Source of the DNA: an uncultured Pseudacidovorax sp.
Lineage (GTDB): Bacteria; Pseudomonadota; Gammaproteobacteria; Burkholderiales; Burkholderiaceae_C
Assembly (NCBI RefSeq): GCF_913773995.1
Contig: NZ_CAJYES010000028.1
Location: 1 to 47,525, forward strand
Length of the DNA stretch: 47,525 bases
Reading direction: 5' to 3'
Shown: in pieces, positions 2,775 through 47,525 of the stretch
How positions within the stretch are numbered: position 1 is the first letter of the stretch
How the letters are laid out: every line of letters starts with the position of its first letter
The notes under the pieces: model-generated
The model's input: the letters and a program-made list of their open reading frames with translations, nothing else
Told to the model about the DNA's origin: nothing
Database searches by the model: none
Made by a program: the position numbers and the translations under genes

Positions 2775-2863
2775 CCCCAGCGCGCACCGGCCTCATCCGC
2801 ACCTTCCGGGCGCCCGACTGCCTTCTGCCCCGGCCCGTTCGCCCACACCTTCGAGGAGCCCCC

Positions 2864-3847: not shown

Positions 3848-3859
3848 GGATTGCGTCCC

Positions 3860-3879
3860 CTCTCCCGCAGGCGGGAGGG
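3860..3879. terminator. Hairpin downstream of the dehydratase gene, terminator-like
   Basis: An 8-bp stem with one T-G wobble (CCTCTCCCG-type arm at 3860-3867, CGGGAGGG at 3872-3879) closes a 4-base loop 13 bases after the dehydratase stop. There is no following T-run, so intrinsic termination is uncertain. The sequence also looks like the short GC-rich palindromes scattered in many high-GC genomes. Confidence 0.4.
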
Positions 3880-3954
3880 ACCAGGACGGGTCACCGAAGC
3901 GACGGCCACCGCGCCCGCCGTCCCACGCGCGACAAGCGCCGCACGCCCGCTTTG

Positions 3955-3971
3955 GACAATCGCCGGCCATG
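3955..3971 (+). promoter_or_regulatory. -10-like GACAAT placed for a leaderless start
   Basis: GACAAT at 3955-3960 ends 8 bases before the ATG at 3969. A transcript starting the usual 6-8 bases after a -10 element would begin at or next to the start codon. No Shine-Dalgarno sequence is present. The -35 region is weak. Confidence 0.45.
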
Positions 3972-10922: not shown

Positions 10923-11798
10923 TCAGTCCTGCTGCTCGTAGTGCGCCTGCCGCGCCTCCATCGCTTCCCAGCCGATCACGCGCTTGAACTCGGCCATGGG
11001 CACCTGGCCGGCCGGCAGGCCGTCCACCTCGCCGCTGCGGCGCGCGGCCAGCGTGACCAGGTTGGCCTGCAGCGCATGCACCGTGCTCATCAGCGTGACG
11101 ATCGGATAGGTGGCGAAGGCCGCTACCGACTCCACCTGCTCGCGCGAGAGCTTTTCCATCCACAGGCCCTGCATCAGCTGCAGCGACAGGCGTCGGCCCG
11201 ACACCTCGCGCAGCTTCACCAGGTCCTCGTAGCTCTTGAAGGTGCGCGAGATCGGCTGGATGAGGTCGGCGCCCGCCTCGGCATAGCGCGCGGCGCGGTC
11301 CATGGCCTCGGCCGGGTCGAGCACATCGGTGCGCGCCACGATCAGGAAGTCCGGATCCTGCCGCGCGTCGACCGCGGCGCGGATACGCGCGACGGCGTCC
11401 TTGACCGGCACCACCGGCATCACCGAGGCGGCGGCGGGGCAACGTTTGGGGCTGATCTGGTCCTCGATGGAGATGGCCGCCACGCCCGCCTTCTCGAACT
11501 CGCGCACGGTGCGGGCCACGTTGATCACGTTGCCGTAGCCGGTGTCGGCGTCCGCGAAGATGGGTTTCTTCACGACATTGGCGATGCGGTTGACCACCGC
11601 CACGTTCTCGGTGAGGGTGTAGACCTCCATGTCCGGCTGGCCCAGCAGCGAGGCCGAGATGCCGAAGCCGGTGGTGAAGATGCCGTCGAAGTCCGACTGG
11701 TCCACGAGCAGGGCCGACAGGGCGTCCTGCACGCCGGCCATCCAGAAGGTGGGGCCGTCGGTGATGCGTTGGCGAAGGGTCTGGCGCAGAGTGGGCAT
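10923..11798 (-). CDS. Isocitrate lyase/PEP mutase superfamily lyase (operon 1)
   Basis: 291 residues, TIM-barrel PEPM/ICL superfamily. Visible features are DSDFDGIFTTGFGISASLLG, the metal site FADADTGYGN, SIEDQISPKRCP and VARTDVLD. Isocitrate and methylisocitrate lyases have KxCGH around the catalytic Cys; here the Cys is kept but Gly-His is replaced (KRCPAA), so the substrate probably differs. Members split 2-substituted malates or isocitrates into an oxo-acid and an acid, or decarboxylate oxaloacetate. As last gene of the operon that starts with an aconitase-type hydratase, it likely acts on the hydratase product. GAGGAA lies 7 bases before the ATG. Confidence 0.88.
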   Translation of the reverse strand: MPTLRQTLRQRITDGPTFWMAGVQDALSALLVDQSDFDGIFTTGFGISASLLGQPDMEVYTLTENVAVVNRIANVVKKPIFADADTGYGNVINVARTVREFEKAGVAAISIEDQISPKRCPAAASVMPVVPVKDAVARIRAAVDARQDPDFLIVARTDVLDPAEAMDRAARYAEAGADLIQPISRTFKSYEDLVKLREVSGRRLSLQLMQGLWMEKLSREQVESVAAFATYPIVTLMSTVHALQANLVTLAARRSGEVDGLPAGQVPMAEFKRVIGWEAMEARQAHYEQQD

Positions 11799-11819
11799 GG
11801 TTGTTCCTCGTGCTGACGG

Positions 11820-13028
11820 TCAGCGCTTGACCGGGTCGATATAGCCGCCCAAGGGGGCGAACTTGTCGCCTTTGAGCTCCATCAGCGCCACGCCGGTCTG
11901 GCCGCGGCGCGAATAGGGGCCGGCGTTGAGCGGCTGGAAGGTGATCTTGGGGCCGATCTTCTGGTCGAAGTCCTTCAGGCCGTCCAGCGCTGCCACGACC
12001 TTGGCGCGCGAGGGCTCGTTGCCGGCGCGTTGCAGCGCCTCCACGGCGACGGCGGCGGCCGAGTAGCCCATCAGCGCGTTCGACGACGGCGCCGACTTGG
12101 GATAGGTCTTGGTGTAGCGCGCGAAGAAGGACTGGATCGCCGGGTTGTCGCCCTCGATGGCGTCGTAGTACGAGGCCACGTAGAGCTTGGACTGCGTCTT
12201 GCCCAGCAGCTCCACGAACTTGGGATCGTTCAGGCCGCCGGCACCGAAGACGGTGGGTTTCCAGCCCAGCTTCTCGGCGCTGCGGAAGAACTGCACCGCC
12301 TCCTGGCCCAGCGCATAGACCACGACCACATCGGGCTCGGCCTGCTTGAGCTTGAAGACCTGCGAGGTGAGGTCGGTCGCGAAGCGCTCGAAGCTCTGCG
12401 CCTCGACCAGCTTCATGCCGTGCTTCTCCAGCTGCTTGACGGCGATGTCGTAGGCCGGCTTTCCCCAGCCGTCGTTCTGGTAGAGCATGGCCACCTTCTT
12501 GGCCTTCAGCGTGCCCACGGCATAGTCGATATACGCGGCCGTCTCGGTGGACTGCGGCGAGGGCAGCACATAGAGCAGCTCGCGCGGCGGCGTGCTGGTC
12601 AGGTCCGAGATGGACAGCGCGCCGATGGTAGGCACCTTCTTGGTCGAGCTGTATTCGTAGGCGCTCACGTTGGTGGCATGGCCGATGTTGCCCACCATGG
12701 CCAGCACGTTGTCGCGCTCGATCAGCAGCTTGGCATTGGCCACCGACTTGGCGGGCTTGAGCTCGTCGTCGTAGGTGATCAGCTTGATCTTGCGGCCATT
12801 CACGCCGCCCTTCTCGTTGACGATGTCGAAGTAGGTGCGCATGCCCTCGTCCACGGCCTTGCCCATGTAGGCCAGCGTGCCGGACAGCGGCTGCGAAGAG
12901 CCGAGCACGATCTCCTTCTCCAGCACGCCTTCGTCCTTGTTCTCGAAGGCGGCGGCCGGCAGCGCAGCGGCGGCCAGGGCGCAGGCGGCCGCGGCGATCA
13001 GGGTGCGGCGGGAATGCAGCGTCATCAT
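11820..13028 (-). CDS. Liv-type ABC transporter substrate-binding protein
   Basis: 402 residues with an N-terminal signal peptide (RRTLIAAAACALAAAALPAAAF; cleavage probably after the last AAA). The mature part is a type I periplasmic-binding protein of the branched-chain amino-acid/amide family: EIVLGSSQPLSGTLAYMG, VNGRKIKLITYDDELKP and AMVGNIGHATNVSAYEYS. It captures the ligand in the periplasm and delivers it to the LivHM-like permease encoded upstream. The family also takes up urea, aromatic acids and dicarboxylates, so leucine is not implied. AAGGAG lies 8 bases before the first of two tandem ATGs, which selects the start at 13028. Genes on both sides run the same way. Confidence 0.92.
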   Translation of the reverse strand: MMTLHSRRTLIAAAACALAAAALPAAAFENKDEGVLEKEIVLGSSQPLSGTLAYMGKAVDEGMRTYFDIVNEKGGVNGRKIKLITYDDELKPAKSVANAKLLIERDNVLAMVGNIGHATNVSAYEYSSTKKVPTIGALSISDLTSTPPRELLYVLPSPQSTETAAYIDYAVGTLKAKKVAMLYQNDGWGKPAYDIAVKQLEKHGMKLVEAQSFERFATDLTSQVFKLKQAEPDVVVVYALGQEAVQFFRSAEKLGWKPTVFGAGGLNDPKFVELLGKTQSKLYVASYYDAIEGDNPAIQSFFARYTKTYPKSAPSSNALMGYSAAAVAVEALQRAGNEPSRAKVVAALDGLKDFDQKIGPKITFQPLNAGPYSRRGQTGVALMELKGDKFAPLGGYIDPVKR

Positions 13029-13086
13029 GGTTGTGTCTCCTTGGGGTGGGTTAGTCGCGGAAGGAAGAAGCGCAAAGGAAGCGGCA

Positions 13087-13813
13087 TCAGCCGCCGAGGT
13101 AGGCGCGCCGGACGTCCTCGTTGCCGGCCAGTTCGGCCGCGCTGGCCTGCATGACCACGCGGCCGGTCTCGATCACATAGCCCTCGTCCGAGATGTCCAG
13201 GGCGATGTCGGCGTCCTGCTCCACCACCAGCAGCGTCAGGCGCTCACGGTCGCGGATGTCACGCAGGGTGGAGAAGATGGCGTCCTTGAGGATGGGGGCC
13301 ACGCCCATCGAGGGCTCGTCCAGCATCAGCAGCCGCGGCCGCGCCAGCAGGCCGCGGGCGATGGCGAGCATCTGCTGCTCGCCGCCCGAGAGGGTGCCGG
13401 CGCGCGAGCCGATGCGCTCCTTGAGCCGCGGAAAGTAGTCCAGCACATGCGTGATGTGGTCGCGCACCTCGCCGGCCGGGCGGGTGTAGCCGCCGAGCAT
13501 CAGGTTCTCGCGCACGCTCAGCTGCGCGAACACCATGCGGCCCTGCGGCACATGCACGATGCCGCGGCGCACCAGCGTCTCGGCCGGCACGTTGGCGATG
13601 GACTGGCCGTCGAACTGCACTGTGCCGTCCATGACCGGTAGCAGGCCCGACAGCACCCGCATCAGCGTCGTCTTGCCGGCGCCGTTGGCGCCCAGCACGC
13701 AGACGATGCGGGCCTCGTGCACCGTGAGGCCGATGCCGTGCAGCGCGCGGATCTTGCCGTAGCCGGCCGCGAGCCGCTCCACCTGCAGCAGCGGGCGCGC
13801 GGCGCCCGTGGGT

Positions 13814-13830
<17 letters not shown>
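13087..13830 (-). CDS. Liv-type ABC transporter ATP-binding protein (LivF-like)
   Basis: 247 residues. Walker A GANGAGKTTLM near residue 50, ABC signature LSGGEQQMLAIARGLLARP, Walker B RLLMLDEPSMG and the H-loop region are in order. The short C-terminus and the sequence VPQGRMVFAQLSVRENLMLGG are typical of LivF rather than LivG. It powers the importer together with the LivG-like protein on the cytoplasmic face. Its start overlaps the end of the livG-like gene by 17 bases. Confidence 0.95.
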
Positions 13831-14667
<837 letters not shown>

Positions 14668-14671
<4 letters not shown>

Positions 14672-34946: not shown

Positions 34947-36974
34947 TCAGGCCGCGCTGCGCAACGCGGCCTGCAGCGTCTCGTGCACCGCCTCCGGGTC
35001 CGCCGGCTTGATCAGGTGCGCGGCAAAGCCGGCGGCCTGGGTGCGCTGGCGGTCGATGGGACTGCCGTAGCCGCTCAGCGCCACCACGGGCAGCCGGGCA
35101 CCGAGGGCGCGCCCGATCTCCACGCCGCTGCCATCGGGCAGGCCCAGGTCGGTCAGCACGATGTCGAACTCCTTCTGCGCGGCGCAGGCCAGGCCTTCGG
35201 CCACCGAGGCGGCGTGGGTGATGGCATAGCCGTAGTCCTGCAGGAAAAGCATCAACAGCTCGGCCGCCTGGACGTTGTCCTCCACCATGAGCACCCGGGC
35301 GCCCTGGGCAGCGGCGGGAGCCGGCGGCAGGGTGGGCGCGGCGCGCAGGGGCTGGGTCTCCTCGCGGTCGGCCAGCGGCAGCCGCATCTCGAAGGTGGCG
35401 CCCTGACCCGGGCCGGCGCTGGTGGCGGTGAGCATGCCCCCGTGCTCGATGACCAGGTGCCGCGCAATGGCCAGGCCCAGGCCCAGCCCGCCGAACTGGC
35501 GTGCGACCTCGCGGTCGGCCTGCTCGAAGGCCTTGAAGATGCGCTCCAGCGCGTCGGGCGCGATGCCGATGCCGTGGTCGACCACGCGCACGACGAAATG
35601 CCCGTCATGCACCTCGGACTCGAGCCGGATCGTGGCGCCGGCCGGACTGAACTTGATCGCGTTGCGCAGAAGGTTGGCGATGACCTGCTTGATGCGGGCG
35701 GCATCGGCCCGCACCCAGGCGCCTTCGGCCATGCCGCGCACACTGAGCTTGAGCTTCTTCTCCGCCAGCGCGCCGCGCATCATCTCGCCCACCTCGCCCG
35801 GCAGCGTGGCCGCGTCGAGCCGGTCGGCGCGAAGGCTCAGCTTGCCGCTGGTGATGGTGGAGACATCGAGCAGGTCGTCGATGAGGCGGGCCTCCAGCTC
35901 GACGTTGCGGCGGATGCCGGGGATCAGGTCCTTGTGGCGCTCGGGCACGGTGGCCAGTCGCTGCAGCAACTGCGCGGCGAAGGAGATGGCGGCCAGCGGA
36001 TTGCGCAGCTCGTGCGAGACGATGGCCAGGAAGCGGTCCTTGGCCTCGTTGGCGCGGGCCATGTCTTCCTGCGCCGCCTCGGCCTGGGCGACGGCGGCCC
36101 GCAGGGCTTCGGCATTGCGATGCTCGGCAGTTCGGTCGCGGATGATCAGGCAGTAGCGCACGCGGCTGGTGGCCACCGGCGGCGCCCCGGCCGAGGGCTC
36201 GGCATCCAGGCAGGCGACGACCACATCGGCCCAGCAGGGCTCGCCGCGCACGGGCTGCAGCCACAGCTGCCCGTTGAAGCTGCCACCGGCGCAGCTGGCG
36301 TGCAGCCACTCCATGGGCTGCGGCCCTTCGCGACTGGTGAGGAATTCATGCAGGGGGCGGCCCAGCGCCTCCGACTCGACCGAGCCGAAGATCTGTCGCG
36401 CACCCAGGTTCCAGCGCAGAACACGCGCCTGGGCATCCAGCAGCACCACCGCATAGTCCGCCAGCGAATCGACCAGGCGGCCGAAGAGCAGGTCGTTGTC
36501 CTGCAGGGCGCGCTCGGCGCGCACGCGCCCATCGCGCACGGCCACTTCGCGCAGCGCGCGATCCACGACCATCGGCAGGCGCGAGAGGCGGCCCTTGCTC
36601 ACGTAGTCGGTGGCACCCTGGCGCAGCAGCTCGACGGCGTTGTCCTCGCCGATGACGCCCGAGACGAAGACGAAGGGCACCTGCGGCGCCAGACTGCGCG
36701 CCAGCTCCAGCGCCTGCTGGCCGGAATAGCCGGGCAGCTCGAAGTCCGACAGGATGAGCTCGAAGCGCTCCTGCCGCAGGGCCTCGGCATAGCCGGCTTC
36801 GTCGCGCACCGTGGTGACCTTCGCATGCGGATACGCACGCAACAGTGCCTCCATCAGCAACTCGGCATCGAAGACCGAGTCTTCCAGCATCAGCACCCGA
36901 AAGGGCGCCAGTGCGCCCCCCGCCGCGGCGGGCCGGGCGGCAGAGCCCGCCCCAGCGGCCGCCCGTTCACTCAT
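34947..36974 (-). CDS. Hybrid histidine kinase, REC-PAS-HisKA-HATPase-REC
   Basis: 675 residues and soluble. Receiver 1 begins FRVLMLEDSVFDAELLMEAL with its acceptor Asp in LILSDFELPGYSG near residue 76. A PAS domain (about 150-275) contains YAVVLLDAQARVLRWNLGAR. The HisKA motif FLAIVSHELRNPLAAIS has its His near residue 320, then NLLRNAIKFSP (N box) and FGGLGLGLAIARHL (G box). Receiver 2 has RVLMVEDNVQAAELL and Asp in IVLTDLGLPDGSG near residue 606. With receivers at both ends it can both receive and pass phosphate. It is the last gene after the phytochrome kinase and a single receiver, overlapping the latter by 8 bases. Confidence 0.94.
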   Translation of the reverse strand: MSERAAAGAGSAARPAAAGGALAPFRVLMLEDSVFDAELLMEALLRAYPHAKVTTVRDEAGYAEALRQERFELILSDFELPGYSGQQALELARSLAPQVPFVFVSGVIGEDNAVELLRQGATDYVSKGRLSRLPMVVDRALREVAVRDGRVRAERALQDNDLLFGRLVDSLADYAVVLLDAQARVLRWNLGARQIFGSVESEALGRPLHEFLTSREGPQPMEWLHASCAGGSFNGQLWLQPVRGEPCWADVVVACLDAEPSAGAPPVATSRVRYCLIIRDRTAEHRNAEALRAAVAQAEAAQEDMARANEAKDRFLAIVSHELRNPLAAISFAAQLLQRLATVPERHKDLIPGIRRNVELEARLIDDLLDVSTITSGKLSLRADRLDAATLPGEVGEMMRGALAEKKLKLSVRGMAEGAWVRADAARIKQVIANLLRNAIKFSPAGATIRLESEVHDGHFVVRVVDHGIGIAPDALERIFKAFEQADREVARQFGGLGLGLAIARHLVIEHGGMLTATSAGPGQGATFEMRLPLADREETQPLRAAPTLPPAPAAAQGARVLMVEDNVQAAELLMLFLQDYGYAITHAASVAEGLACAAQKEFDIVLTDLGLPDGSGVEIGRALGARLPVVALSGYGSPIDRQRTQAAGFAAHLIKPADPEAVHETLQAALRSAA

Positions 36975-37425
36975 AGCGGCGCGAGGTCTTGACCGAGCCG
37001 GGCGGCGGCTCGTTGAGCACCGCCCAGAACACGCCCAGGTCGGCGATGGCCGAGACGAACTGCTTGAAGTCCACCGGCTTGACCACGTAGGCATTGACGC
37101 CCAGCTCGTAGCTGCGCAGCACGTCGGATTCCTGCTGCGAGGAGGTGAGCATCACCACCGGCACGCTGCGCAGGCTGGGATTGGCGCGCACCTGCTCCAG
37201 CACCTCCAGGCCGTCCACCTTGGGCAGCTTAAGGTCCAGCAGGATGACCGCCGGATTGCCCGTGCCGCGGTCGGCGAATTCGCCTTCCTGGTTGAGGTAG
37301 GCCAGCGCCTGGGCGCCGTCGCGCACGGTGATGACCTCGTTGGCCAGCTGGCTGCGTTCGAGCGCCATGAGGGTGAGTTCGAGGTCCCGCTTGTCGTCCT
37401 CGACCAGCAAGATGGGCTTAAGCAT
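36967..37425 (-). CDS. Single-domain response regulator (Rcp1-like)
   Basis: 152 residues, receiver domain only. PILLVEDDKRDLELTLMALE supplies the acidic pocket, VILLDLKLPKVDGLEVLEQV the acceptor Asp, VVMLTSSQQESDVLRSYELG the Thr/Ser switch and AYVVKPVDFKQF the Lys. The long segment between strands and the KLPKVDG motif match the Rcp regulators paired with phytochromes. GGAG 6 bases before the ATG at 37425 selects this start; the frame is open to 37533. The 5' end overlaps the phytochrome stop by 8 bases. It should carry phosphate from the photoreceptor to the hybrid kinase. Confidence 0.94.
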   Translation of the reverse strand: MLKPILLVEDDKRDLELTLMALERSQLANEVITVRDGAQALAYLNQEGEFADRGTGNPAVILLDLKLPKVDGLEVLEQVRANPSLRSVPVVMLTSSQQESDVLRSYELGVNAYVVKPVDFKQFVSAIADLGVFWAVLNEPPPGSVKTSRRYE

Positions 37426-39664
37426 GAAGTTCTCCGGGCGCATCCTGCGCGGGACCTGGGGGATGGGGGGGCAGCACGAAACCGAAGCGGGCACCGCGAC
37501 CGGGTTCGCCATGCGCCCAGACCCGGCCGCCATGACGCTCGACGATGCGCTTGACGTTGGCCAGGCCGATGCCGGTGCCCTCGAACTCCTCCGCGGAATG
37601 CAGCCGCTGGAACACGCCGAAGAGCTTGCCCACGTACTTCATTTCGAAGCCGACGCCATTGTCCTCGACCTCGATGCCGCTGCCGTCCGCCTCGCGGATG
37701 GCCCTCACCTGGATCACGGCCGGGCTGGCCCCCCGCGTGTACTTCAGGGCGTTTCCGAGCAGGTTGCGCGTGGCCACCTGCAGCAGCAGCGGATCGGCCT
37801 CCAGCACGGGCAGCGGCGCCTGCACCTTCCACTGCACGCCGCGGGCGGCGTCGCCGCGCGAGAGTTCGTGGATCAGCCCTTCGATCAGGTCCGCCATCTT
37901 CACCGGCCGCAGCTTGAGCGCCGTGCGGCCCATGCGCGAGAAGTCGAGCAGCGCATCGACCAGCTCACCCGCGAAGGCCGCCGCGTCCTTGACGTTGGAG
38001 AGGTAGCGCAGCGCCCGCTCGGACAGCTGGCGCCCTTCCATGTCGACCACCAAGTCCACGAAGCCGGCGATGTGGCGCATGGGTGCCCGCAGGTCGTGCG
38101 AGACGGTGTACGAGAACGCCTCCAGCTCGCGGTTGACGCGGCTCAGCTCCGTGGCCACGGCGGCCATCTCTTCCGCCCGGCGCAGCACGATGCCGATGAG
38201 CGCCTGGCGCAGTTCGTCGGCCGCGGCGCGCTCCTCGGCGGTCCAGGGCAGGCTGCGGCCGCGGATCTTCTGCGCCCAGCTGGAGAAGCTGCGCCGCGGA
38301 TGGATGCGGCCGTCTTCCGGGCGCACTTCCTTGCGCGGGTCGCCCGCCCAGGTGATGGTGCGCACATGCTCCGGCCGGAACCACAGCACCAGGTGGCGGT
38401 GCACCTGCGAGATCGACACCGCCAGGCAGCCGGCGATCTCCTGGCCCGCCGACCAGGCCGGCACGGTGTGCGGACTCAGGGCGTCGTTGGCGTAGACCGG
38501 CTCTTCCAGGCCGGCGATCCAGCTGGCCAGGGCCAGCACCTCGGACTTGGGCGGGGTCTCGCCCGTGGTCCAGACCTCGTCGTCGAGCACCACGGCCGCG
38601 CCGGCGGCGCGCGCCAGCCGCAGCAGGGGCGCCGGCTCGGCCAGCAGGCGCTGCAGGCTGGCATCGCTGTCGGACAGGTGCGAGACGATCTCCAGGATCA
38701 GCTTGCGCAGCTCCAGCCGCTGGGCAGCCGAGGCGTTGCTTTCCTTGGCCTGTATCTGCAGCGACACCAGCCGCCCGAGGTGCTCGCAGGCCAGGCGCGT
38801 GGTGGGCGCCAGCTGGCGCGGCTGGTGGTGATGGCAGGAGATCAGCCCCCACAGCCGCCCCTGCACCACCAGCGACACCGACATGGACGCCAGCGTGCCC
38901 ATGTTGCGCATGTACTCGAGGTGCACTGGCGACACGCTGCGCAGACCCGACTGGGACAGATCCACCGGCCGCTCGTCGCCCGGCCCGATCAGCGGAACGG
39001 GCGTGTAGTTGGCGTCGGGAATGATGCGGAAGTGGTTGAGCGTGTACAGCTCGCGCGCCTGCGCCGGAATGTCGGAGGCGGGAAAGTGGTGTCCCGTGTA
39101 GCGCTCGTAGCCGTCCTCGGCCACCTCGGCCAGCACGCGGCCATCGCCGTTCTCGTCGAAGCGGTAGAGCAGACAGCGGCCGAAGCCGCTGAGCTGCTTC
39201 ATCTCGGCGACGGCCAGCACGGCCAGCGCCTCGATGTCGTCCACGGCCTGCAGCCGCGGCATGAAGGCCCGTGCCACCGTGTAGATGGACGTGCTTCCGT
39301 GCCCAGGCTCTTCCTGCGGCGGTTCGAACTCCACGATGAGCCGGCCATCGCGGGCATGGGCCGAGGCCTGCATGTGGCCGCCCTCGCCCACCGCGAAGTT
39401 GCCCAGCGGCACCGGGAAGGCCTGCTCCGGCAGGGCCTGCAGCCCGCGGGCCAGCAGTTCGGCGACAGCGGCGTGGCGCTCATGCTCGGGCCAGTTGGCA
39501 CTCCACGCCGTCTGCCGCCCGCTGGCGATGTCGATCACCAGCAACCGGCCGTGCGGCTGGATCGCGCCGGGGATGCGGATGGGCTCGTCCTCGCAGCGCG
39601 CGAGGTCGGCAGGCTCCGGCCCCGAAGGTGGCGTGAGCGCGGATGGGGCGGAAGGCGAATTCAT
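37418..39664 (-). CDS. bphP: Bacteriophytochrome photoreceptor histidine kinase
   Basis: 748 residues with PAS-GAF-PHY-HK order. Cys24 in LARCEDEPIRIPGAIQPHG is the biliverdin-binding residue of bacteriophytochromes. The GAF domain has GRVLAEVAEDGYERYTGHHF and FPASDIPAQARELY (the PxSDIP motif). The PHY domain has the tongue motif HPRRSFSSW. The kinase has FSYTVSHDLRAPMRHI (His near residue 521), NLLGNALKYTRG and GTGIGLANVKRIVERHGG. It should sense red/far-red light in the cytosol and phosphorylate the receiver encoded next. No haem oxygenase gene (biliverdin supply) lies beside it in the window. The ATG lacks a visible Shine-Dalgarno. Confidence 0.95.
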   Translation of the reverse strand: MNSPSAPSALTPPSGPEPADLARCEDEPIRIPGAIQPHGRLLVIDIASGRQTAWSANWPEHERHAAVAELLARGLQALPEQAFPVPLGNFAVGEGGHMQASAHARDGRLIVEFEPPQEEPGHGSTSIYTVARAFMPRLQAVDDIEALAVLAVAEMKQLSGFGRCLLYRFDENGDGRVLAEVAEDGYERYTGHHFPASDIPAQARELYTLNHFRIIPDANYTPVPLIGPGDERPVDLSQSGLRSVSPVHLEYMRNMGTLASMSVSLVVQGRLWGLISCHHHQPRQLAPTTRLACEHLGRLVSLQIQAKESNASAAQRLELRKLILEIVSHLSDSDASLQRLLAEPAPLLRLARAAGAAVVLDDEVWTTGETPPKSEVLALASWIAGLEEPVYANDALSPHTVPAWSAGQEIAGCLAVSISQVHRHLVLWFRPEHVRTITWAGDPRKEVRPEDGRIHPRRSFSSWAQKIRGRSLPWTAEERAAADELRQALIGIVLRRAEEMAAVATELSRVNRELEAFSYTVSHDLRAPMRHIAGFVDLVVDMEGRQLSERALRYLSNVKDAAAFAGELVDALLDFSRMGRTALKLRPVKMADLIEGLIHELSRGDAARGVQWKVQAPLPVLEADPLLLQVATRNLLGNALKYTRGASPAVIQVRAIREADGSGIEVEDNGVGFEMKYVGKLFGVFQRLHSAEEFEGTGIGLANVKRIVERHGGRVWAHGEPGRGARFGFVLPPHPPGPAQDAPGELHA

Positions 39665-39881: not shown

Positions 39882-40799
39882 TCATCCCTCGTACTGCCGA
39901 CCCCGCGCGAGCAGCTCGGGCGTGCCGATCACGGCATTGAGCCCATCGAAATCCAGCATCGACGAACGCCAGGGCTCGGTGGTCTGGTGCGCCCGCAGGC
40001 TGGCGAAGTAGCCCTGCATCGCATGGGCCAGGGCCCGCACCGTGCCGCCCGGGAAGATGACGATCCGAAAACCCAGGCGGCCCAGCTCGTCCGCGGGCGT
40101 GATCGGCGTCTTGCCGCCTTCGACCATGTTGGCCAGCAGCGGCACGCGGCCGGCGAATCGCTGCGCGGCCTTGGCCAGTTGTTCCGGCGTGCGCAGAGCC
40201 TCGATGAAGAGCGCATCGACACCGCAGGCCAGATAGGCCTCGGCCCGGTCCATGGCGGCGTCCCAGCCCTCCACGGCCAGGGCATCGGTGCGCGCGAGGA
40301 TCAGCGTGTCGGCGCTGCGGCGCGCGTCCAGCGCAGCGCGCAGCTTGCCCTGCATCTCGGCGACGGGCACCACGGTCTTGCCGTCCAGGTGGCCGCAGCG
40401 CTTGGGAAAGCCCTGGTCCTCCAGCTGGATCATGGCGGCGCCGGCGCGCTCCAGGCCGGCCACGGTGCGTTGCGTGTTCAGCGCATTGCCGAAGCCGGTG
40501 TCGGCGTCCACGATCACCGGCGTGCGCACCCGCTCGGTGATGTGGGCCAGCGTGTCGCAGACCTCGGTGAAGGTGGTGAGCCCGATGTCGGAGCGGCCCA
40601 GCTTCGTATAGGCGATGGAGGCACCCGACAGGTACAGCGCCTCGAAGCCGGCCTGCTCGGCCAGCAGCGCGCTGAAGGCGTCGTAGACGCCCGGGCACAG
40701 CAGGGGCTCGGGCCGCGCCAGGCGCGCGGCAAGCCCGGCGCCTGCAGTGACGGAAGGGCTGCGCCCAGGGCGCGCCGAAGAAGAAGTCGTCTCGTTCAT
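39882..40799 (-). CDS. Isocitrate lyase/PEP mutase superfamily lyase (operon 2)
   Basis: 305 residues, PEPM/ICL TIM barrel. LCPGVYDAFSALLAEQAGFE, LYLSGASIAYTKLG, VIVDADTGFGNALNT (metal-binding Asp), MIQLEDQGFPKRCGHLDGK and LILARTDALAVEGWDAAMDR match methylisocitrate or dimethylmalate lyase-type enzymes. The KRCGH loop with catalytic Cys is intact, unlike in the paralogue at 10923-11798. Expected reaction: retro-aldol or Claisen-type cleavage of a substituted malate to an oxo-acid and a carboxylic acid, needing Mg. It could instead be an oxaloacetate decarboxylase-like enzyme. Last gene of the seven-gene overlapping operon; ATGA overlap with the flavoprotein gene. Confidence 0.9.
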   Translation of the reverse strand: MNETTSSSARPGRSPSVTAGAGLAARLARPEPLLCPGVYDAFSALLAEQAGFEALYLSGASIAYTKLGRSDIGLTTFTEVCDTLAHITERVRTPVIVDADTGFGNALNTQRTVAGLERAGAAMIQLEDQGFPKRCGHLDGKTVVPVAEMQGKLRAALDARRSADTLILARTDALAVEGWDAAMDRAEAYLACGVDALFIEALRTPEQLAKAAQRFAGRVPLLANMVEGGKTPITPADELGRLGFRIVIFPGGTVRALAHAMQGYFASLRAHQTTEPWRSSMLDFDGLNAVIGTPELLARGRQYEG

Positions 40800-42229
40800 G
40801 TCGAAGTGGATGTGCGCAGGAAGGCCGCCATGTCATGGGCCGCGATATAGCCGCCCGCCACCGCGCTGAGCAGGCCGTTGCCGGAGAGGTAGCCGCTGAC
40901 ATGGTTGCCGGAGACGCCGCGCGCCGCGCCGCCCGCCGCCCAGAGGTTGGGTAGCGGCTGGCCCTGGCCATCGAGCACGCGGGTGCGTGCATCGATGTCG
41001 AGCCCGCCCTGCGTATGGAACAGGGCGCCGGTCACCTTCACGGCGTAGAAGGGTGCGTCGAGGCGGCGCGGCAGCCGGCGGCCGAAGGCATCGGGCTCGC
41101 CCGGCGTCCAGGCAGACAGCGTCTCGCCGAGCGTGCCCGGATCGCAGCCGATGAGCGCCGCAAGCGCTTCGAGCGAATCGGCCCGCCGGACGGCGCCGGC
41201 GCTCTCGGCCTCGACGAAGTCGGGAAAGCCCTGCGCCAGCGCATGCACCGGCGTGTCGAACACGTTCCAGGCGATGCCACCGGGCTGCGCGACCACGTGC
41301 AGCGCGGCTTCAGAGTAGCCCTGCGACTCGTCATGGAAGCGGCGGCCTTCGCGGTTGATCTGGACGCCGCCCTCGACCATCAGGGCCCAGGTCATCAGCA
41401 CGCCGTGCGGCACGGCCCAGGAGCCGTGGCCCTGGTAGGCCTGCATGTCCGCGAGTTGCGCGCCCAGCGCCTCGCCCCAGTGCAGCGCGGTGCCGTCGTT
41501 GCCGGTGTGGCCGCCGAAGGTGGCTTCGGCCATCTCCGGGATGTAGCGGCGCACCAGCGCGGGCGCCCCGCCGTAGCCATTGCAGGCCAGCAGCAGCGCG
41601 CGACAGCCGATGGCCTCCACGCTGCCATCGGGCCGACGGGCGCGCACGCCGAGCACGCGGCGCTCCGCGTCGACCACCAGCTCGGTCGCCTGCGCCTCGC
41701 AGAGGATGGGCACCGCCGCCGCCTCGGCCGCAGCCTCCAGCGCCTGCTCCAGCGCGACGCCGGTGCGGGCAGCCAGCGTGTGCATGCGATGGCGGCTGTG
41801 GCCCGGATAGAGAAAGCCCGTCAGCACTTCCCATTGCAGGCCATGGCGCGCTTCGAGATGGTCCAGCGCCGGGGCGATGGCCTGCGTGTAGGCCGCCACC
41901 AGGGCCGGCGCCGCCGTGCCGTGGGCCTTGGCCTGGATGTCTTCGGCGAAGCGCTCGGCATTGTCCTGGACGCCCAGCGCCTGCTGCGTGCGTGTACCGG
42001 CCGCCGGAATGAAGCCGGAGGACAGGCTGGTCGAGCCGCTGGGCTGCGCATCGCGCTCCAGCACCACCGCCTCGACGCCCAGATCGGCGAGCAGCAGTGC
42101 GGCCACGAGGCCGCAGGCGCCCGCGCCCACGATCAGCACGTCGGCCTGCACCGGCGCTTCGAAGCCCGGCTCGACCACCACCCGGGCCGCCGTGCCCGAC
42201 CCGGCCGTGGCCGCCGGAGGGCCGCTCAT
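40796..42229 (-). CDS. FAD-dependent fumarate-reductase-like dehydrogenase
   Basis: 477 residues. The FAD site ADVLIVGAGACGLVAALLLA lies near residue 30, with VVLERDAQPSGSTSLSSGF next. The C-terminal flavin motif is NLWAAGGAARGVSGNHVSGY followed by LSGNGLLSAVAGGYIAAHD. This is the succinate dehydrogenase/fumarate reductase, ketosteroid dehydrogenase and tricarballylate dehydrogenase group, which makes or reduces a C=C bond next to a carboxyl or keto group. In this operon it could oxidise a substituted succinate to the maleate or fumarate form for the hydratase. No signal peptide is seen. The start at 42229 fits the ATGA overlap with the preceding gene; an open frame runs on to 42418. Confidence 0.87.
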   Translation of the reverse strand: MSGPPAATAGSGTAARVVVEPGFEAPVQADVLIVGAGACGLVAALLLADLGVEAVVLERDAQPSGSTSLSSGFIPAAGTRTQQALGVQDNAERFAEDIQAKAHGTAAPALVAAYTQAIAPALDHLEARHGLQWEVLTGFLYPGHSRHRMHTLAARTGVALEQALEAAAEAAAVPILCEAQATELVVDAERRVLGVRARRPDGSVEAIGCRALLLACNGYGGAPALVRRYIPEMAEATFGGHTGNDGTALHWGEALGAQLADMQAYQGHGSWAVPHGVLMTWALMVEGGVQINREGRRFHDESQGYSEAALHVVAQPGGIAWNVFDTPVHALAQGFPDFVEAESAGAVRRADSLEALAALIGCDPGTLGETLSAWTPGEPDAFGRRLPRRLDAPFYAVKVTGALFHTQGGLDIDARTRVLDGQGQPLPNLWAAGGAARGVSGNHVSGYLSGNGLLSAVAGGYIAAHDMAAFLRTSTST

Positions 42230-42816
42230 GCCAGCACCCGGGCGCCGAAGTCGGCGCAGTCCACCACATGGGCGACGGTGGCCATGTCGGCCAGGGCCGT
42301 GGCATGGGTCTCGGGCTTGAAGGCGGCGCAGCCGTCGGCCACCACCCAGGTGTCGTAGTCGCGCATGTGCGCATCGCGCACGGTGCTGGCCACGCCGCCG
42401 TTGGTGACGATGCCGCAAACCGCCACGCGCTCGATGCCGTTCTTGCGCAGCAGCCAGTCGAGCTGGGTGTTGAAGAAGGCGGAGTACGCCACCTTGTGCA
42501 CCGTGGCGTCGATGACCGGCTGCAGCAGCTCCACATTGGCCTGGCCCCAGCTGCCGGGCGCAAAGTCACCCTGCCGCAGGAAGGGCCGCAGCGCCAGCAG
42601 GTGCGGCGAGATCATGGGCGCACCGCCAACGCCGGGCCACAGCGTGAACTGGCTGGCCACCACCAGGCCGCCGGCCGCGCGCACGGCCTGCGCCAGCGGC
42701 AGCACGCGCTCGGGCAGGGCCTGCGCGGCCGGGTTGGCACAGCCGCCGCGGGCATAGGCGCCGCGGGCGTCGAGGAAGTCGTTCTGCAGGTCGATGATGA
42801 CCAGGGCGGTTTTCAT
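42226..42816 (-). CDS. Isochorismatase-fold hydrolase lacking the nucleophile Cys
   Basis: 196 residues. The fold is clear: TALVIIDLQNDFLDARGAY (catalytic Asp near residue 9), a Lys in VHKVAYSAFFNTQLDWLL, and ERVAVCGIVTNGGVASTVRD. Amidases of this family have Cys in the last motif (GIxTxxCVxxT); here that position is Gly (TNGGV). Isochorismatases also lack the Cys and hydrolyse an ether-type bond, so this protein may not be a thiol amidase. In context it is the candidate for hydrolysing the half-amide or carbamoyl product of the hydantoinase-like pair. Another Cys (AVCGI) is six residues earlier. Start at 42816 overlaps the preceding stop by 4 bases. Confidence 0.88.
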   Translation of the reverse strand: MKTALVIIDLQNDFLDARGAYARGGCANPAAQALPERVLPLAQAVRAAGGLVVASQFTLWPGVGGAPMISPHLLALRPFLRQGDFAPGSWGQANVELLQPVIDATVHKVAYSAFFNTQLDWLLRKNGIERVAVCGIVTNGGVASTVRDAHMRDYDTWVVADGCAAFKPETHATALADMATVAHVVDCADFGARVLA

Positions 42817-44858
42817 GGCTGGCGAAGGATGAGGTTGCCCAGGGCATCGACCACGGCCTCGAAGCCGGGTTCGAGCCAGACGGTGGTGTCGGCCTGTTCG
42901 AGGATGGCCGGGCCGGCGATGCGCGCGCCCACCGGCAGGTCCAGCCGCGCGTAGCGGCGTGCCTGCACCCAGTCGCCGCCGAAGTAGACCGGCTGCTCGC
43001 CCAGCGGCTCGGTGCGGCCCTCGCCGCGCGGTGCCAGCACGGACAGGTCGAACTTGGGCCGCACGCCGATGAGGGCATAGCGCAGGTTCATGACGCGCAG
43101 GCCGATGCCGTCGAGCACACGGCCGAACTCGGTGCGGTAGGCGGTCTCGAAGGCGGCGCGGGCGGCGTCGGCGTCCAGGGCGTCGGCCAGCACCGGCACG
43201 GCCACCGTGTGGGTCTGGCCCTGGTAGAGCATGTCCAGCACCAGTTCCTCGCGCACCGACTCGAAGGCCACGCCGGCGCTGTCCAGCCGGGCGCGGCAGC
43301 GCGACTCGAAGCCGGCCCTCAGTTCGCGCAGCGCGGCGAAGTCGATGGCGGCCAGGTCCTGGTTGAGGGTCTGCACCGCGTCGTGGCGCATGTCGGCCAT
43401 CACGCAGCCCAGGGCCGAGGTGACGCCCGGATAGCGCGGCACGATGCCGGTGACCACGCCCACCTCGCGCATCATGGCGCACACATGCAGGCCGCCGCCG
43501 CCGCCGAAGGGCATGTAGGCGAAGCGCCGCGGGTCGTGGCCACGCTCGATGGAGACCAGCCGCATCGCGCCGGCCATCTTGGCATTGGCCACCGTGAGGA
43601 TGGCCTCGGCCGCGGCCAGCACGTCCAGGCCCAGCGGCTCGGCCACATGGCGGCGGATGGCTTCGCGGGCCTTCTCCACGTCCAGCGCGCCCAGCAGACC
43701 ACCGCCGAGCGGGCGCTGCGCCGCGATGCGACCCAGCAGCACGTTGGCGTCGGTCACGGTGGGCCGCTCGTTGCCGCGGCCGTAGCAGGCCGGGCCGGGC
43801 ACGCTGCCGGCGGACTCGGGGCCGACCTGCAGCATGCCGCCCGCGTCCACGCTGGCGATGGAGCCGCCGCCAGCGCCGATGGTCTCGATCTGGATCATGG
43901 GCGAGCGCACCACCAGGCCGAAGTCGATGCTGGTCTGCGAGGCCAAGGCAGCCTGCCCGCCCGCGATGAGCGACACGTCGAAGGAGGTGCCGCCGATGTC
44001 GCCGGTGATCACGTCCGGATGGCCCGCGGCCGTGGCGATGGCCGCGCAGGCGATGACGCCCGCGGCCGGGCCGGAGAGCGCCGTGCGCACCGGCAGTTCG
44101 CCCGCCGTGCGGCGCGACATCACGCCGCCGTTGCTCTGCACGATCAGCAGCTCGCCGCCGAAGCCGCGCGCGCGCAGGTCGCCGTCCAGCCGCTCCAGGT
44201 AGCGGCCCACCACGGGCTGCAGCGCGGCATTGAGGCTGGCGGTGGAGGCGCGCTCGAACTCGCGGATCTCGGGCAGCACCTCGGCCGCCGCCGTCACATG
44301 GTCGTTGGGCCAGAGCGCGCGCACCGCCGCCACGGCGGCCTGCTCGTTGCTGGGGTTGGCATAGGTGTTGATGAAGAACACGCACACGGCCTCGCAGCCC
44401 TGCTCCAGCAGCTGGCGGGCGGCGGCGCGCACCTGGTCCAGGTCCACCGGCGTGTGCACGCTGCCGTCGGCCAGCACGCGCTCGTCGACCTCCAGGCGCA
44501 GGGCGCGCTCGATCACCGGCTCGAAGCCGCCGCGCAGGCCCCAGGTCTGGGGCCGGTCGCGCCGGCGCATCTCCAGCACGTCGCGAAAGCCCCGCGTGGT
44601 GATCAGGCCGGTGCGGGCCACCTTGCGCTCCAGCAGCGCGTTGGTGCCCACGGTGGTGCCGTGGATGATGGTGGCCAGGCTCTGCGCGCCGCGGTCGTCC
44701 ACGCGCGCGATGCCGTTCATGAAGCCCACCGACTCTTCGCCGCGGGTGGAGGGCACCTTGACGATCTCGGCGGTGCCGGCGGCCTCGTCGAGCACGAAGA
44801 GGTCGGTGAAGGTGCCGCCGACGTCCACGCCGACGACACGGGTGCGCGCGTCGCTCAT
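42813..44858 (-). CDS. Hydantoinase/oxoprolinase subunit A (HyuA-type)
   Basis: 681 residues, the normal size. The ATPase-type fold (acetate/sugar kinase, Hsp70-like) is marked by VVGVDVGGTFTDLFVLDE at the N-terminus, HGTTVGTNALLERKVARTGL, LIVQSNGGVMSRRTA and ITGDIGGTSFDVSLIAGG, the second phosphate loop. With subunit B it forms an ATP-dependent ring-opening hydrolase for 5-oxoproline, N-methylhydantoin, lactams or similar rings, or an acetone-carboxylase-like enzyme. The exact ring is not predictable. The ATG at 44858 overlaps the subunit B stop by 4 bases; the frame is open upstream without family similarity. Confidence 0.93.
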   Translation of the reverse strand: MSDARTRVVGVDVGGTFTDLFVLDEAAGTAEIVKVPSTRGEESVGFMNGIARVDDRGAQSLATIIHGTTVGTNALLERKVARTGLITTRGFRDVLEMRRRDRPQTWGLRGGFEPVIERALRLEVDERVLADGSVHTPVDLDQVRAAARQLLEQGCEAVCVFFINTYANPSNEQAAVAAVRALWPNDHVTAAAEVLPEIREFERASTASLNAALQPVVGRYLERLDGDLRARGFGGELLIVQSNGGVMSRRTAGELPVRTALSGPAAGVIACAAIATAAGHPDVITGDIGGTSFDVSLIAGGQAALASQTSIDFGLVVRSPMIQIETIGAGGGSIASVDAGGMLQVGPESAGSVPGPACYGRGNERPTVTDANVLLGRIAAQRPLGGGLLGALDVEKAREAIRRHVAEPLGLDVLAAAEAILTVANAKMAGAMRLVSIERGHDPRRFAYMPFGGGGGLHVCAMMREVGVVTGIVPRYPGVTSALGCVMADMRHDAVQTLNQDLAAIDFAALRELRAGFESRCRARLDSAGVAFESVREELVLDMLYQGQTHTVAVPVLADALDADAARAAFETAYRTEFGRVLDGIGLRVMNLRYALIGVRPKFDLSVLAPRGEGRTEPLGEQPVYFGGDWVQARRYARLDLPVGARIAGPAILEQADTTVWLEPGFEAVVDALGNLILRQP

Positions 44859-46549
44859 TGCTGTTCTCCTGGGTGGGCCGCGTCTGCCGCGTCGGCCAGA
44901 TAGCCGCGGCGGGCATCCACCGCGCGTTCGTCGGCGCTGCGCCCCGCGGGTGGCCCCCAGCCACCGCCGCCGGGGGTTTCGAGCCGCACGCGGTCGCCGC
45001 GCTCCAGGGTGATGCCCAGCATCTTCGACACCATGGGCGGCGTGTGCCACGCGCCCTGCGAATGCCAGCTGAAGCGGTTGGCCTGCGCATCGCCGCCGCC
45101 GGCGATGCCCTTGGGCGCCGACTTGCCGCGCTCGCCGAAGACGAAGGCCTGGGCCTGGCGCTCCAGCAGCTCGATCTCGTAGACGGCGCCCAGGCCGCCG
45201 CGGTGCGTGCCATCGCCGCCCGAGCCGGGGCGCAGGGCCCATTCGGTGAAGCGCACGGGATAGGCGGCCTCCAGGATTTCCAGCGGCGGGATGGTGGCCG
45301 TGGAGATCGGCGCATTGCCGTGGTTGAGGCCATCGCCGCCCGCATGGGCGCCGTGGCCGCCGCCGAAGAAGCTGAACATCACCCAGCGCTGGCCGTTGCG
45401 TGCGCCCTCGCTGCGGTGGCCGGCGATGGACAGCGCATTGATGGTGCCGTAGGCCTGCGCCACGGCGCGGCGCGGATCGGCCTGGGCCGCGGCGCTGAAG
45501 ATGACGTCGATCATGCGCAGGATGGTCTCGGTGTAGCCGCCCACCGGCCGCGGGCGCTGCGCCGTGATGACCAGGCCTTCGGGCATGACGAACTCCACCG
45601 CATCGAGCACGCCGGCATTGGCCGGCACCTCGGGGAACAGGTGCTTGAGCGCCACGTAGCAGGCGGCCACGGCGGTGGCGCGCGAGATGTTGACGGGGCC
45701 CTGGCACTGCGGCGAGCTGCGCGAGAAGTCCAGCACCAGCCGCTCGCCCTGCACCGTCATGTCCAGCGCGATGGTGAGCGCCTCGTCGGTCACGCCATCG
45801 TTGTCGAGCACGTCCGAGAAACTGTAGACACCGTCGGGCAGCGAGGCGATCTGCGCGCGCATCAGCCGGCGGGCCCGCTCGCGCAGTGCCTGCAGGGCCT
45901 GCAGCACCACGGCGTCGCCATAGGCATCGAGCAGTTCGGCCAGGCGGCGCGCACCCAGCTCCAGCGCGGCCAGCTGGCCGTTGAGGTCGCCCCACAGGCT
46001 GTCGGGCAGGCGGGTGTTGGCCCGCAGGATGGCCAGCACATCGGGGTTGATCTGCCCGCCCTGCACGATGCGCACCGGCGGGATCTGCACCGCCTCCTGC
46101 CAGCATTCGGTGGCCGCCGGGTTGTAGTTGCCCGGCACCGCGCCACCCACGTCGTGCCAGTGCGCGGCCGAGGCCAGGAAGCACAGCAGCCGGCCGTCGC
46201 GGAACACCGGACGCACCAGCTTGAAGTCGTTGGCATGGGTGCCGCCCTCGTAGGGGTCGTTGAACAGCCAGACCTCGCCCTCGCGCATGCCGCCGAGCGC
46301 CTCGGCCGCCCGCTTGGCGGCGCGCACCGCGAAGGCCATGGCGCCCACGAACACGGGCAGGCCCGACTTGCCCTGCACCAGGGTGTCGCCGCTCGCCGCG
46401 TCGTACAGCCCGTGGCAGGCGTCGTGCGCCTCGGCAATGATGGGATTGAACGCGCTGCGGTAGAGCGTCGCGTCCATCTCGTCGGCGATCTGCTCGAGTC
46501 GCCCCTTGAGCACCGCCAGCGTGACGGGATCGAGTGTGGCTTCAGACAT
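44855..46549 (-). CDS. Hydantoinase/oxoprolinase subunit B (HyuB-type)
   Basis: 564 residues, full length. The N-terminus DPVTLAVLKGRLEQIADEMD is the family signature. It continues with RSAFNPIIAEAHDACHGLYD, LFNDPYEGGTHANDFKLVRP, FLASAAHWHDVGGAVPGNYN and RPRPVGGYTETILRMIDVIF. A Gly-rich tail (RLETPGGGGWGPPAG) is the usual C-terminal motif. It is the partner that carries out amide or ring hydrolysis after activation by subunit A. Its start overlaps the end of the hydratase small-subunit gene by 8 bases. Gene order B then A is reversed from many hyuAB operons. Confidence 0.94.
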   Translation of the reverse strand: MSEATLDPVTLAVLKGRLEQIADEMDATLYRSAFNPIIAEAHDACHGLYDAASGDTLVQGKSGLPVFVGAMAFAVRAAKRAAEALGGMREGEVWLFNDPYEGGTHANDFKLVRPVFRDGRLLCFLASAAHWHDVGGAVPGNYNPAATECWQEAVQIPPVRIVQGGQINPDVLAILRANTRLPDSLWGDLNGQLAALELGARRLAELLDAYGDAVVLQALQALRERARRLMRAQIASLPDGVYSFSDVLDNDGVTDEALTIALDMTVQGERLVLDFSRSSPQCQGPVNISRATAVAACYVALKHLFPEVPANAGVLDAVEFVMPEGLVITAQRPRPVGGYTETILRMIDVIFSAAAQADPRRAVAQAYGTINALSIAGHRSEGARNGQRWVMFSFFGGGHGAHAGGDGLNHGNAPISTATIPPLEILEAAYPVRFTEWALRPGSGGDGTHRGGLGAVYEIELLERQAQAFVFGERGKSAPKGIAGGGDAQANRFSWHSQGAWHTPPMVSKMLGITLERGDRVRLETPGGGGWGPPAGRSADERAVDARRGYLADAADAAHPGEQQ

Positions 46550-47075
46550 GGGATTCCTTGGAGAAGCGTTGCTTGAGTTCGTTGAGCAGGCCGCCCGCGC
46601 GCACCCGCGCCATCAGGAAGGCGGGCACCGGTTCGCAGGCGAGCACGCGGCCGTCGGCGGCCCGCACCTGGGGCCGGTCGGGGTCGTCCACGGCCAGGCC
46701 GATGCGCTCGCCCTCCTGCAGCGCGTCTCCGTCGGCGCAGGTGAGCAGCAGCAGGCCGACGTTGAAGGCGTTGCGGAAGTACAGGCCGCTGTAGCTGGGC
46801 GCGATGACGGCGCGCACGCCCAGGGCCACGAGCACGGACGCGGCCTGCTCGCGCGAGGAGCCGATCCCGAAGCCCGGCCCGGCCACCACCACGTCGCCGG
46901 GGCGCACCTGGGTGGCGAACTCGGGCCGCATCGATTCGAGGCAGTGGCGGGCGATGACGTCCATGCCGAACTTCATGGCATGGCCGGGGGCCAGGGCGTC
47001 GGTGTCGACATTGGCGCCCAGGCGCCACACGCGGTGGCCCGGCGCCGCGCCGTCCGTCGGTAGAGATGTGCTCAT
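46542..47075 (-). CDS. Aconitase-superfamily hydratase, small (LeuD-like) subunit (operon 2)
   Basis: 177 residues, the short LeuD/homoaconitase type. RLGANVDTDALAPGHAMKFG is the N-terminal motif, and VVVAGPGFGIGSSREQAASV keeps the catalytic Ser-Ser-Arg-Glu loop. YSGLYFRNAFNVGLLLLTC is the third block. It completes the active site of the large subunit encoded just before it. The intact loop contrasts with the paralogue at 16525-17097. Both ends overlap neighbours, by 4 and 8 bases, so it is translated as part of the operon. A leucine-synthesis role is unlikely among hydantoinase and lyase genes. Confidence 0.9.
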   Translation of the reverse strand: MSTSLPTDGAAPGHRVWRLGANVDTDALAPGHAMKFGMDVIARHCLESMRPEFATQVRPGDVVVAGPGFGIGSSREQAASVLVALGVRAVIAPSYSGLYFRNAFNVGLLLLTCADGDALQEGERIGLAVDDPDRPQVRAADGRVLACEPVPAFLMARVRAGGLLNELKQRFSKESHV

Positions 47076-47525
47076 GGCTTTGCGCTCGGCGATGAAGAAG
47101 CGATGGCGGAAGAGCGCCCATCCGCCAGCAGCTCGCGCGGATCGGTGATGCGCCCGCGCAGCGCCGAAGCCGCCACGGTGTAGGGCGAGGCCAGGAACAC
47201 CTCGGCCTGCGCCGAGCCCATGCGGCCCTTGAAGTTGCGCGCCGTGCTGGAGATCACCCGCGTCGCGCCCTGGATGGCCTGGCCGTAGCCGGCGCAGGCG
47301 CCGCAGGCACTGGGCAGCAGCTCGGCGCCCGCATCGCGCAGCACCTGGGCCACGCCGGCCGCCTCGGCCCGCTGCCAGTCGTGCACGCTGGCCGGTGCCA
47401 CCAGCAGCCGCATGCCGGCGGCGATGCGGCGGCCGGCCAGCACGCGGGCGGCGGCCTGCAGGTCCTCCAGCTTGGCGCCAGTGCAGGCGCCGATGTAGGC
47501 CAGCTGCACCGGCTCGTCGGCCACG
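47072..47525 (-). CDS. Aconitase-superfamily hydratase, large (LeuC-like) subunit, C-terminal part (operon 2; 5' cut by window)
   Basis: The visible 151 codons cover the C-terminal third of a LeuC-like protein. Iron-sulfur Cys positions are in LAYIGACTGAKLEDL and LPSACGACAGYG (Cys-x-x-Cys). NFKGRMGSAQAEVFLASPYT and ASALRGRITDPRELL are conserved late blocks. It resembles the shorter, non-leucine type of large subunit and is the partner of the small subunit that overlaps its stop by 4 bases. The rest of the gene, the operon promoter and any regulator lie beyond the right edge of the window. Confidence 0.88.
   Translation of the reverse strand, partial: VADEPVQLAYIGACTGAKLEDLQAAARVLAGRRIAAGMRLLVAPASVHDWQRAEAAGVAQVLRDAGAELLPSACGACAGYGQAIQGATRVISSTARNFKGRMGSAQAEVFLASPYTVAASALRGRITDPRELLADGRSSAIASSSPSAKP

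Follow-up and report, generated by a model that had tools for sequence, protein, structure and literature searches.

A conserved operon of Pseudacidovorax sp. and its relatives with probable roles in the import, opening and cleavage of a cyclic amide

Introduction

In the fermentation of nicotinate, a hydratase of the LeuCD type (DmdAB) acts before a lyase of the isocitrate lyase (ICL) family. Both kinds of enzyme recur in the locus described here, a run of seven co-directional genes at positions 39882–47525 (minus strand) of the window, i.e., the whole 47,525-nucleotide stretch analyzed (contig NZ_CAJYES010000028.1 of an uncultured Pseudacidovorax sp.). This likeness draws on the nicotinate pathway as we know it and on the LeuD/DmdB cut-off passed by the small hydratase subunit, not on the lyase sequence; the fermentation is anaerobic and, to our knowledge, proceeds without a hydantoinase/oxoprolinase pair (HyuAB), an isochorismatase-fold protein (ISO) or a flavoprotein of the kind encoded here. 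PrpB of the methylcitrate cycle is a member of the same family as the lyase and shares its KRCGH motif, and tricarballylate dehydrogenase (TcuA), in its pathway as we know it, is an FAD_binding_2 flavoprotein feeding an aconitase-type step. Caprolactamase (CapAB) and the ATP-dependent hydantoinases and oxoprolinases are alike to HyuAB in both subunits, at scores here of about half the equivalog cut-off or less, but HyuAB, unlike CapAB, precedes a putative diacid-splitting core. The anaerobic indole-3-acetate pathway can be likened to the locus by its description as we know it: a HyuAB-type enzyme (IaaCE) forms a substituted succinate by opening a lactam, but the route continues via CoA esters. 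In the fungal nicotinate pathway, a cyclic imide is opened by the imidase HxnM and the resulting amide is hydrolyzed by the amidase HxnN (PMC9304392). Some relatives of the present locus likewise carry PuuE/imidase-fold proteins; the fungal product, however, is 2-hydroxyglutarate, and the available part of that report describes no core of flavoprotein, LeuCD and lyase.

The initial annotation of the locus knew of no described pathway combining all these enzymes, and no paper recognized as describing the gene set was found in the open-licence literature, a scope outside which most subscription journals fall. The seven genes form a real, conserved and probably undescribed catabolic operon, a new combination of known enzyme kinds. 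As to the type of pathway, we favor, with reasonable but far from full confidence, the import of a ring amide, the opening of its ring, and the splitting of the acid so formed to give two small metabolites.

Conservation of the operon

The genes overlap their neighbors by 4–8 bases and are transcribed in the order LeuC-type subunit, LeuD, HyuB, HyuA, ISO, flavoprotein (FAD) and ICL-family lyase (ICL). Because the contig terminates at position 47525, the LeuC large subunit is incomplete and nothing can be read past it in this genome. Seven enzymes had been announced for the operon; all seven families are in place, but they amount to five activities, since both the hydratase and HyuAB consist of two subunits, and the large subunit is cut by the contig end.

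Relatives were found with the lyase as the sole query against a genome collection of 84,980 species, one genome each. Of at least 584 relatives, the best 80 were used, so the sample leans to close lyases. These loci were typed by the module proteins encoded up to 9 kb from the flavoprotein gene: type A has HyuAB and/or ISO, type B an amidohydrolase, and type C SDR/AtuA proteins with DUF4387. Type A accounted for 47 loci, type B for 8 and type C for 12, while 6 were undecided and 7 were without the flavoprotein. All seven genes were present within the 9 kb limit in 42 of the 47 type-A loci, and the five with fewer genes (L012, L013, L015, L016, and L025) were cut off by the contig end on the side where genes were missing. 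The co-occurrence check suggested earlier therefore returned a conserved unit, and on these counts a chance co-occurrence of the seven genes is excluded. Contig ends also explain undecided loci, four of which (L009, L035, L064, and L076) were cut within 6 bases of the flavoprotein match and one of which (L037) was on a short contig, and three of the loci without the flavoprotein (L029, L047, and L048) were contig-cut.

The operon relatives include Variovorax, Acidovorax, Limnohabitans, Achromobacter, Thiobacillus and others, as well as members of other classes of the phylum. In those classes, type-A operons had the order LeuC-LeuD-ICL-HyuB-HyuA-ISO-FAD (L105 and L106) or were rearranged (L102 and L107–L109), with all seven genes present in L102, L105, and L106. 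An MmgE/PrpD protein (2730–4124) was encoded at the LeuCD position of L108, also of type A, which suggests that the hydratase was replaced too; LeuCD-like genes lie directly behind the flavoprotein gene there.

The distribution of the flavoprotein is patchy: at E ≤ 1e-100, it was matched in 17 of the 200 family genomes sampled, and no match was obtained in G477, which belongs to the same genus as the window. In a phylum sample of 398 genomes, drawn evenly, the flavoprotein profile matched 13 genomes at E ≤ 1e-60, this one included, and the ISO profile gave nine matches at E ≤ 1e-30. The eight strong ISO matches (E ≤ 2.0e-73) were all in genomes that also had the flavoprotein; the ninth (G255, 2.7e-31) was not accompanied by a flavoprotein match. 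Of the 13 genomes with the flavoprotein, the five lacking ISO were of type B (G366), of a further type D (G050 and G395) or had distant flavoproteins (G288 and G392).

Regulator and importer in relatives

Upstream of the operon in relatives, genes for a GntR regulator and then LivK-H-M-G-F were found, often with a TctC-type binding protein; the single regulator scanned for domains (L022) carried a UTRA domain. By a tblastn recount, GntR, LivK, and LivH occurred together in 15 of 16 type-A/B genomes with a readable upstream side. The sixteenth (G339) had GntR, with LivK and LivH absent from the stretches read, and two further genomes were left out of the count (G379, where the stretch ends inside LivH, and G280, where the contig ends). 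GntR and a Liv-type importer are probably encoded beyond the contig end in the present genome too. Further out, no widely recurring gene was seen in the relatives, and downstream genes were common to small groups of related loci only (families of 7 to 9 rows).

LivK identities were compared across 13 operons. Medians were 82% within type A (21 pairs), 84% between types A and B (35 pairs) and 87% within type B (10 pairs), vs. 53% between A and C (7 pairs) and 52% between B and C (5 pairs), the type-C values deriving from a single LivK. For LivH, four type-C operons showed 57–64% identity vs. 76–92% among A/B operons (G366 included, operons of other classes left out). The A–C identity medians of the flavoprotein, lyase and LeuD were within 2 points of their A–A medians. 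Our reading is that types A and B would import one compound and open it by different enzymes, that type C would import another, and that all end in the FAD-LeuCD-ICL core. The solved relatives of LivK were mostly generic Leu/Ile/Val- or amino-acid-binding proteins, and no ligand was assigned on that basis.

Exchange of ring-opening enzymes

In type B (the eight loci and L112), an allantoinase/hydantoinase-like amidohydrolase occupied the HyuB-HyuA-ISO slot. The motifs scored in it, which we take to be metal-ligand motifs, were all present in five of the six copies checked; the other copy is truncated at the start. A single genome of the 398 was matched at E ≤ 1e-70, and since this match sits within a type-B operon, the amidohydrolase appears tied to the FAD-LeuCD-ICL core. 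Type B was not one clade on a quick tree of the flavoprotein, which had 69 rows and several long branches; it required 6 changes, at least 2 of them forced by starred branches, so the ring openers were probably swapped more than once. Type D (L103 and L104) encodes the flavoprotein, two polysaccharide-deacetylase-fold proteins, an isochorismatase that has the cysteine and is closest to maleamate amidase, and the lyase, with GntR-LeuCD facing away. For the polysaccharide-deacetylase-fold protein searched, the nearest solved structure was the allantoinase PuuE, and a cyclic imidase of the PuuE/polysaccharide-deacetylase family, related to an imidase of P. putida, has been reported from Aspergillus nidulans (PMC9304392, as far as available).

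Two other kinds of ring-opening hydrolase thus appear to fill the HyuAB slot in relatives, in line with the ring opening first assigned to HyuAB. That assignment is supported in particular because the type-B amidohydrolase replaces HyuB-HyuA-ISO and the LivK proteins of the two types differ no more than those within type A. Types A, B, and C all have the flavoprotein, LeuCD and lyase, which therefore probably handle one shared open-chain diacid.

Side observations were made in two further groups. In L022 (3420–6728) and its type-C relatives (12 loci), genes for SDR, DUF4387 and AtuA-family proteins and a GntR gene precede the LeuCD-FAD-ICL core. In a distant type-D relative, L139 (694–15297), a flavin monooxygenase gene is found next to those for LeuCD, an isochorismatase and two PuuE-like proteins, and an iron-type alcohol dehydrogenase, a second isochorismatase and a further ICL-family lyase are encoded near the module; the arrangement hints at a pathway for a nitrogen ring but, being too loose, was not used as evidence.

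Enzymes of the operon

The predicted family assignments of all seven proteins are secure at the Pfam level. HyuB (44855–46549, Hydantoinase_B) and HyuA (42813–44858, Hydantoinase_A), both on the minus strand like the other genes of the operon, are spanned over their full length by these domains, which places the pair in the ATP-dependent hydantoinase/oxoprolinase superfamily. Two HyuB stretches that align with the metal ligands of CapB were kept in 45 of 47 copies; the two exceptions (L002 and L003) are paralogues of this genome. Caprolactamase was the best NCBIfam match of both subunits (504.7 bits for HyuA and 282.3 for HyuB), below cut-offs of 1000 bits, and the best solved relatives were N-methylhydantoinase and 5-oxoprolinase/hydantoinase chains.

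ISO (42226–42816, Isochorismatase) has Asp9, Lys108, and, at the place of the catalytic cysteine, Gly141. Asp9 and Lys108 were invariant in 32 aligned copies, with G141 at the cysteine place, and the motif TNGG stood at the nucleophile site in 48 of 48 copies read and in all eight strong matches of the phylum sample (the copies of the window and L045 being already among the 48). The Asp-Lys-Cys triad of cysteine amidohydrolases such as maleamate amidase, N-carbamoylsarcosine amidase and RutB is therefore lacking. True isochorismatases also keep the Asp and Lys and have Gly at the cysteine's place. The ISO model (mean pLDDT 90.3) had RutB and the biuret/triuret hydrolases as its nearest solved folds. 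Hydrolysis of a half-amide had been assigned to ISO, a role that is not supported, given the missing nucleophile; moreover, ISO is not an obligatory half-amidase, since no counterpart was found in type-B operons, which do without it. Judged by its residues, ISO is no ordinary half-amidase.

The flavoprotein (40796–42229, FAD_binding_2) has a flavocytochrome c/urocanate reductase fold; its model (mean pLDDT 91.0) was nearest to solved urocanate reductase and flavocytochrome c, and it scored 128.1 bits against the 369-bit cut-off of the TcuA equivalog. The hydratase large subunit (47072–47525, LeuC/DmdA type, Aconitase) is represented by its 150 C-terminal amino acids, which keep three cysteines (ACTGAK and ACGAC) that we expect to hold a 4Fe-4S cluster. 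The small subunit (46542–47075, LeuD/DmdB family, Aconitase_C) passed the NCBIfam subfamily model TIGR02087 (LeuD/DmdB; 141.2 vs. 108.95 bits), and its specificity loop reads M-K/Q instead of YLRT or YLVx, which we take to be the known types. In the lyase (39882–40799, PEP_mutase/ICL), a C–C lyase of the PEP mutase/isocitrate lyase family, KRCGH, N224, and E227 were invariant in 38 sequences; it scored 279 bits vs. 354.4 for the PrpB (methylisocitrate lyase) equivalog and has NMVEGGKTP where PrpB has NITEFGATP at the active site. The proposed hydration and C–C cleavage, of the kind seen in dimethylmaleate or methylcitrate chemistry, find support as well. A "dimethylmalate lyase" named in a paper on isoprene degradation by Variovorax WS11 was rejected as the lyase of this operon, as it belongs to a prpC-acnD-prpF methylcitrate cluster in the available part of that paper (PMC9804861).

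Elsewhere in the window, a second, distant PEP mutase/ICL paralogue, with KRCGH altered to KRCPA, adjoins a Liv-type binding protein and a LivG-like ATPase (the latter judged by eye) at 10923–14671 (minus strand). A phytochrome-type histidine kinase (PAS_2, GAF, PHY, HisKA, and HATPase domains; 37418–39664, minus strand) lies 217 bases downstream of the lyase gene and is followed by a response regulator (36967–37533) and a hybrid kinase (34947–37094); no phytochrome relative was found in any of the 80 lyase-selected loci.

Proposed pathway and alternatives

In the pathway that we infer, the operon would be regulated by GntR and would serve both import and degradation. A Liv-type ABC importer would take up a small cyclic amide (an imide, hydantoin, or lactam), whose ring would be opened by HyuB-HyuA at the expense of ATP; the cysteine-less ISO may perform a further step, limited to the HyuAB route. 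The flavoprotein would desaturate the open-chain diacid to its cis-unsaturated form, and hydration of the diacid or this form by the LeuCD-type enzyme would give a substituted malate, which the ICL-family lyase would cleave to a carboxylic acid and a 2-oxo acid of the kind of glyoxylate or pyruvate. What was observed is the gene content, its conservation, the exchange of the block, the common importer and the lost cysteine; each of the chemical steps, their order and the substrate are our suggestion.

Several observations weigh against this pathway. The fate of the half-amide is unexplained, because ISO is no usual amidase and none was seen in type-B operons; the mechanism is weakest in accounting for how type B would lose the amide nitrogen. 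In 38 of 38 aligned flavoproteins, the two catalytic arginines of flavocytochrome c (presumably Arg402 and Arg544 in flavocytochrome c3 numbering) are Tyr305 and Tyr447, with the aligned histidines kept; an Arg402Tyr mutant was listed among the solved relatives. The flavoprotein thus departs from the fumarate reductases in these arginines, and the case for a fumarate-reductase-like desaturation of a plain succinate is weakened. No NCBIfam equivalog cut-off was reached by any protein among the matches listed (for the flavoprotein, the best 25 of 71). No ring opener is recognized beside the core in the type-C operons, which make up 12 of the 80 loci, or in L050, of which 8.7 kb upstream is present. 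Finally, four uncut loci without the flavoprotein speak against a strict unit: in L008, the lyase is the sole member of the seven within 20 kb, L078 has LeuCD-ICL, and L056 and L074 have the lyase.

Among the alternatives, a hydantoin or other ureide as the ring survives best, although we regard it as unlikely. HyuAB or the allantoinase-like enzyme would then yield an N-carbamoyl acid, and ISO would act on its ureido group, which would suit the modeled fold neighbors of ISO (RutB and the biuret/triuret hydrolases), the closeness of the type-B enzyme to allantoinase and hydantoinases, and that of the searched type-D protein to the allantoinase PuuE. ISO, however, lacks the cysteine nucleophile, the product would be an amino acid unfit for the hydratase and lyase, and the conserved operon genes all belong to other families. 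An imide ring is somewhat favored by the type-D enzymes and product chemistry, as a hydantoin is by the fold neighbors of ISO.

It is more doubtful still that the operon serves an organic acid, by a route similar to that of tricarballylate or methylcitrate, with HyuAB and ISO in side chemistry. The type-C operons and L050 would fit such a route, as would the TctC-type binding proteins of many operons, but a different kind of ring opener replaces HyuAB-ISO in operons with an equally similar LivK, and ISO was never apart from the flavoprotein (eight of eight strong matches). That HyuAB is an ATP-dependent carboxylase of the acetone or acetophenone carboxylase type rather than a ring-opening hydrolase is highly improbable, for although it shares their superfamily and both subunits match acetophenone carboxylase models and acetone carboxylase chains, caprolactamase matches far better (505 vs. 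295 bits for HyuA and 282 vs. 103 for HyuB) and a cyclic amidohydrolase takes its slot in type B.

Returning to the import and opening of a cyclic amide, a bolder version, to which we give little credence, is an undescribed route in which three unrelated ring openers (HyuAB with the cysteine-less ISO, the allantoinase-like amidohydrolase, and PuuE-fold imidases) feed one desaturate-hydrate-cleave core, possibly from an imide of tetrapyrrole origin, for example hematinic or dihydrohematinic acid. From such an imide, the opened acid would be a methyl-homoaconitate, and hydration and cleavage would give pyruvate and glutarate. This substrate is a guess; maleimides and hematinic acid have been reported from senescent leaves and lake sediments (PMC7318184, as far as available), which renders it possible rather than likely.

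Two further routes were considered. The isonicotinate/citrazinate pathway, in which a cyclic imide is converted to cis-aconitamide, drew attention since its diacid would be aconitate; it has no need of the flavoprotein or of a dedicated lyase and was left open. The open-licence matches listed for it (20 of 64) came from chemistry, most of them dealing with carbon dots, and none was recognizable by title as a degradation paper. For indole-3-acetate or oxindole, no paper mentioning a hydantoinase was found in the same literature.

Conclusion

In relatives, regulator, importer and enzymes are all part of the operon; no listed equivalog cut-off was reached, however, and no describing paper was found. 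The cysteine-less and strictly conserved ISO family is a separate small puzzle, and the type-C operons offer a handle on the AtuA/DUF4387 pair. LivK allows direct ligand screening. That ring openers were probably exchanged repeatedly while the importer stayed the same amounts to a natural experiment, which would limit the substrate to compounds that both enzymes can open.

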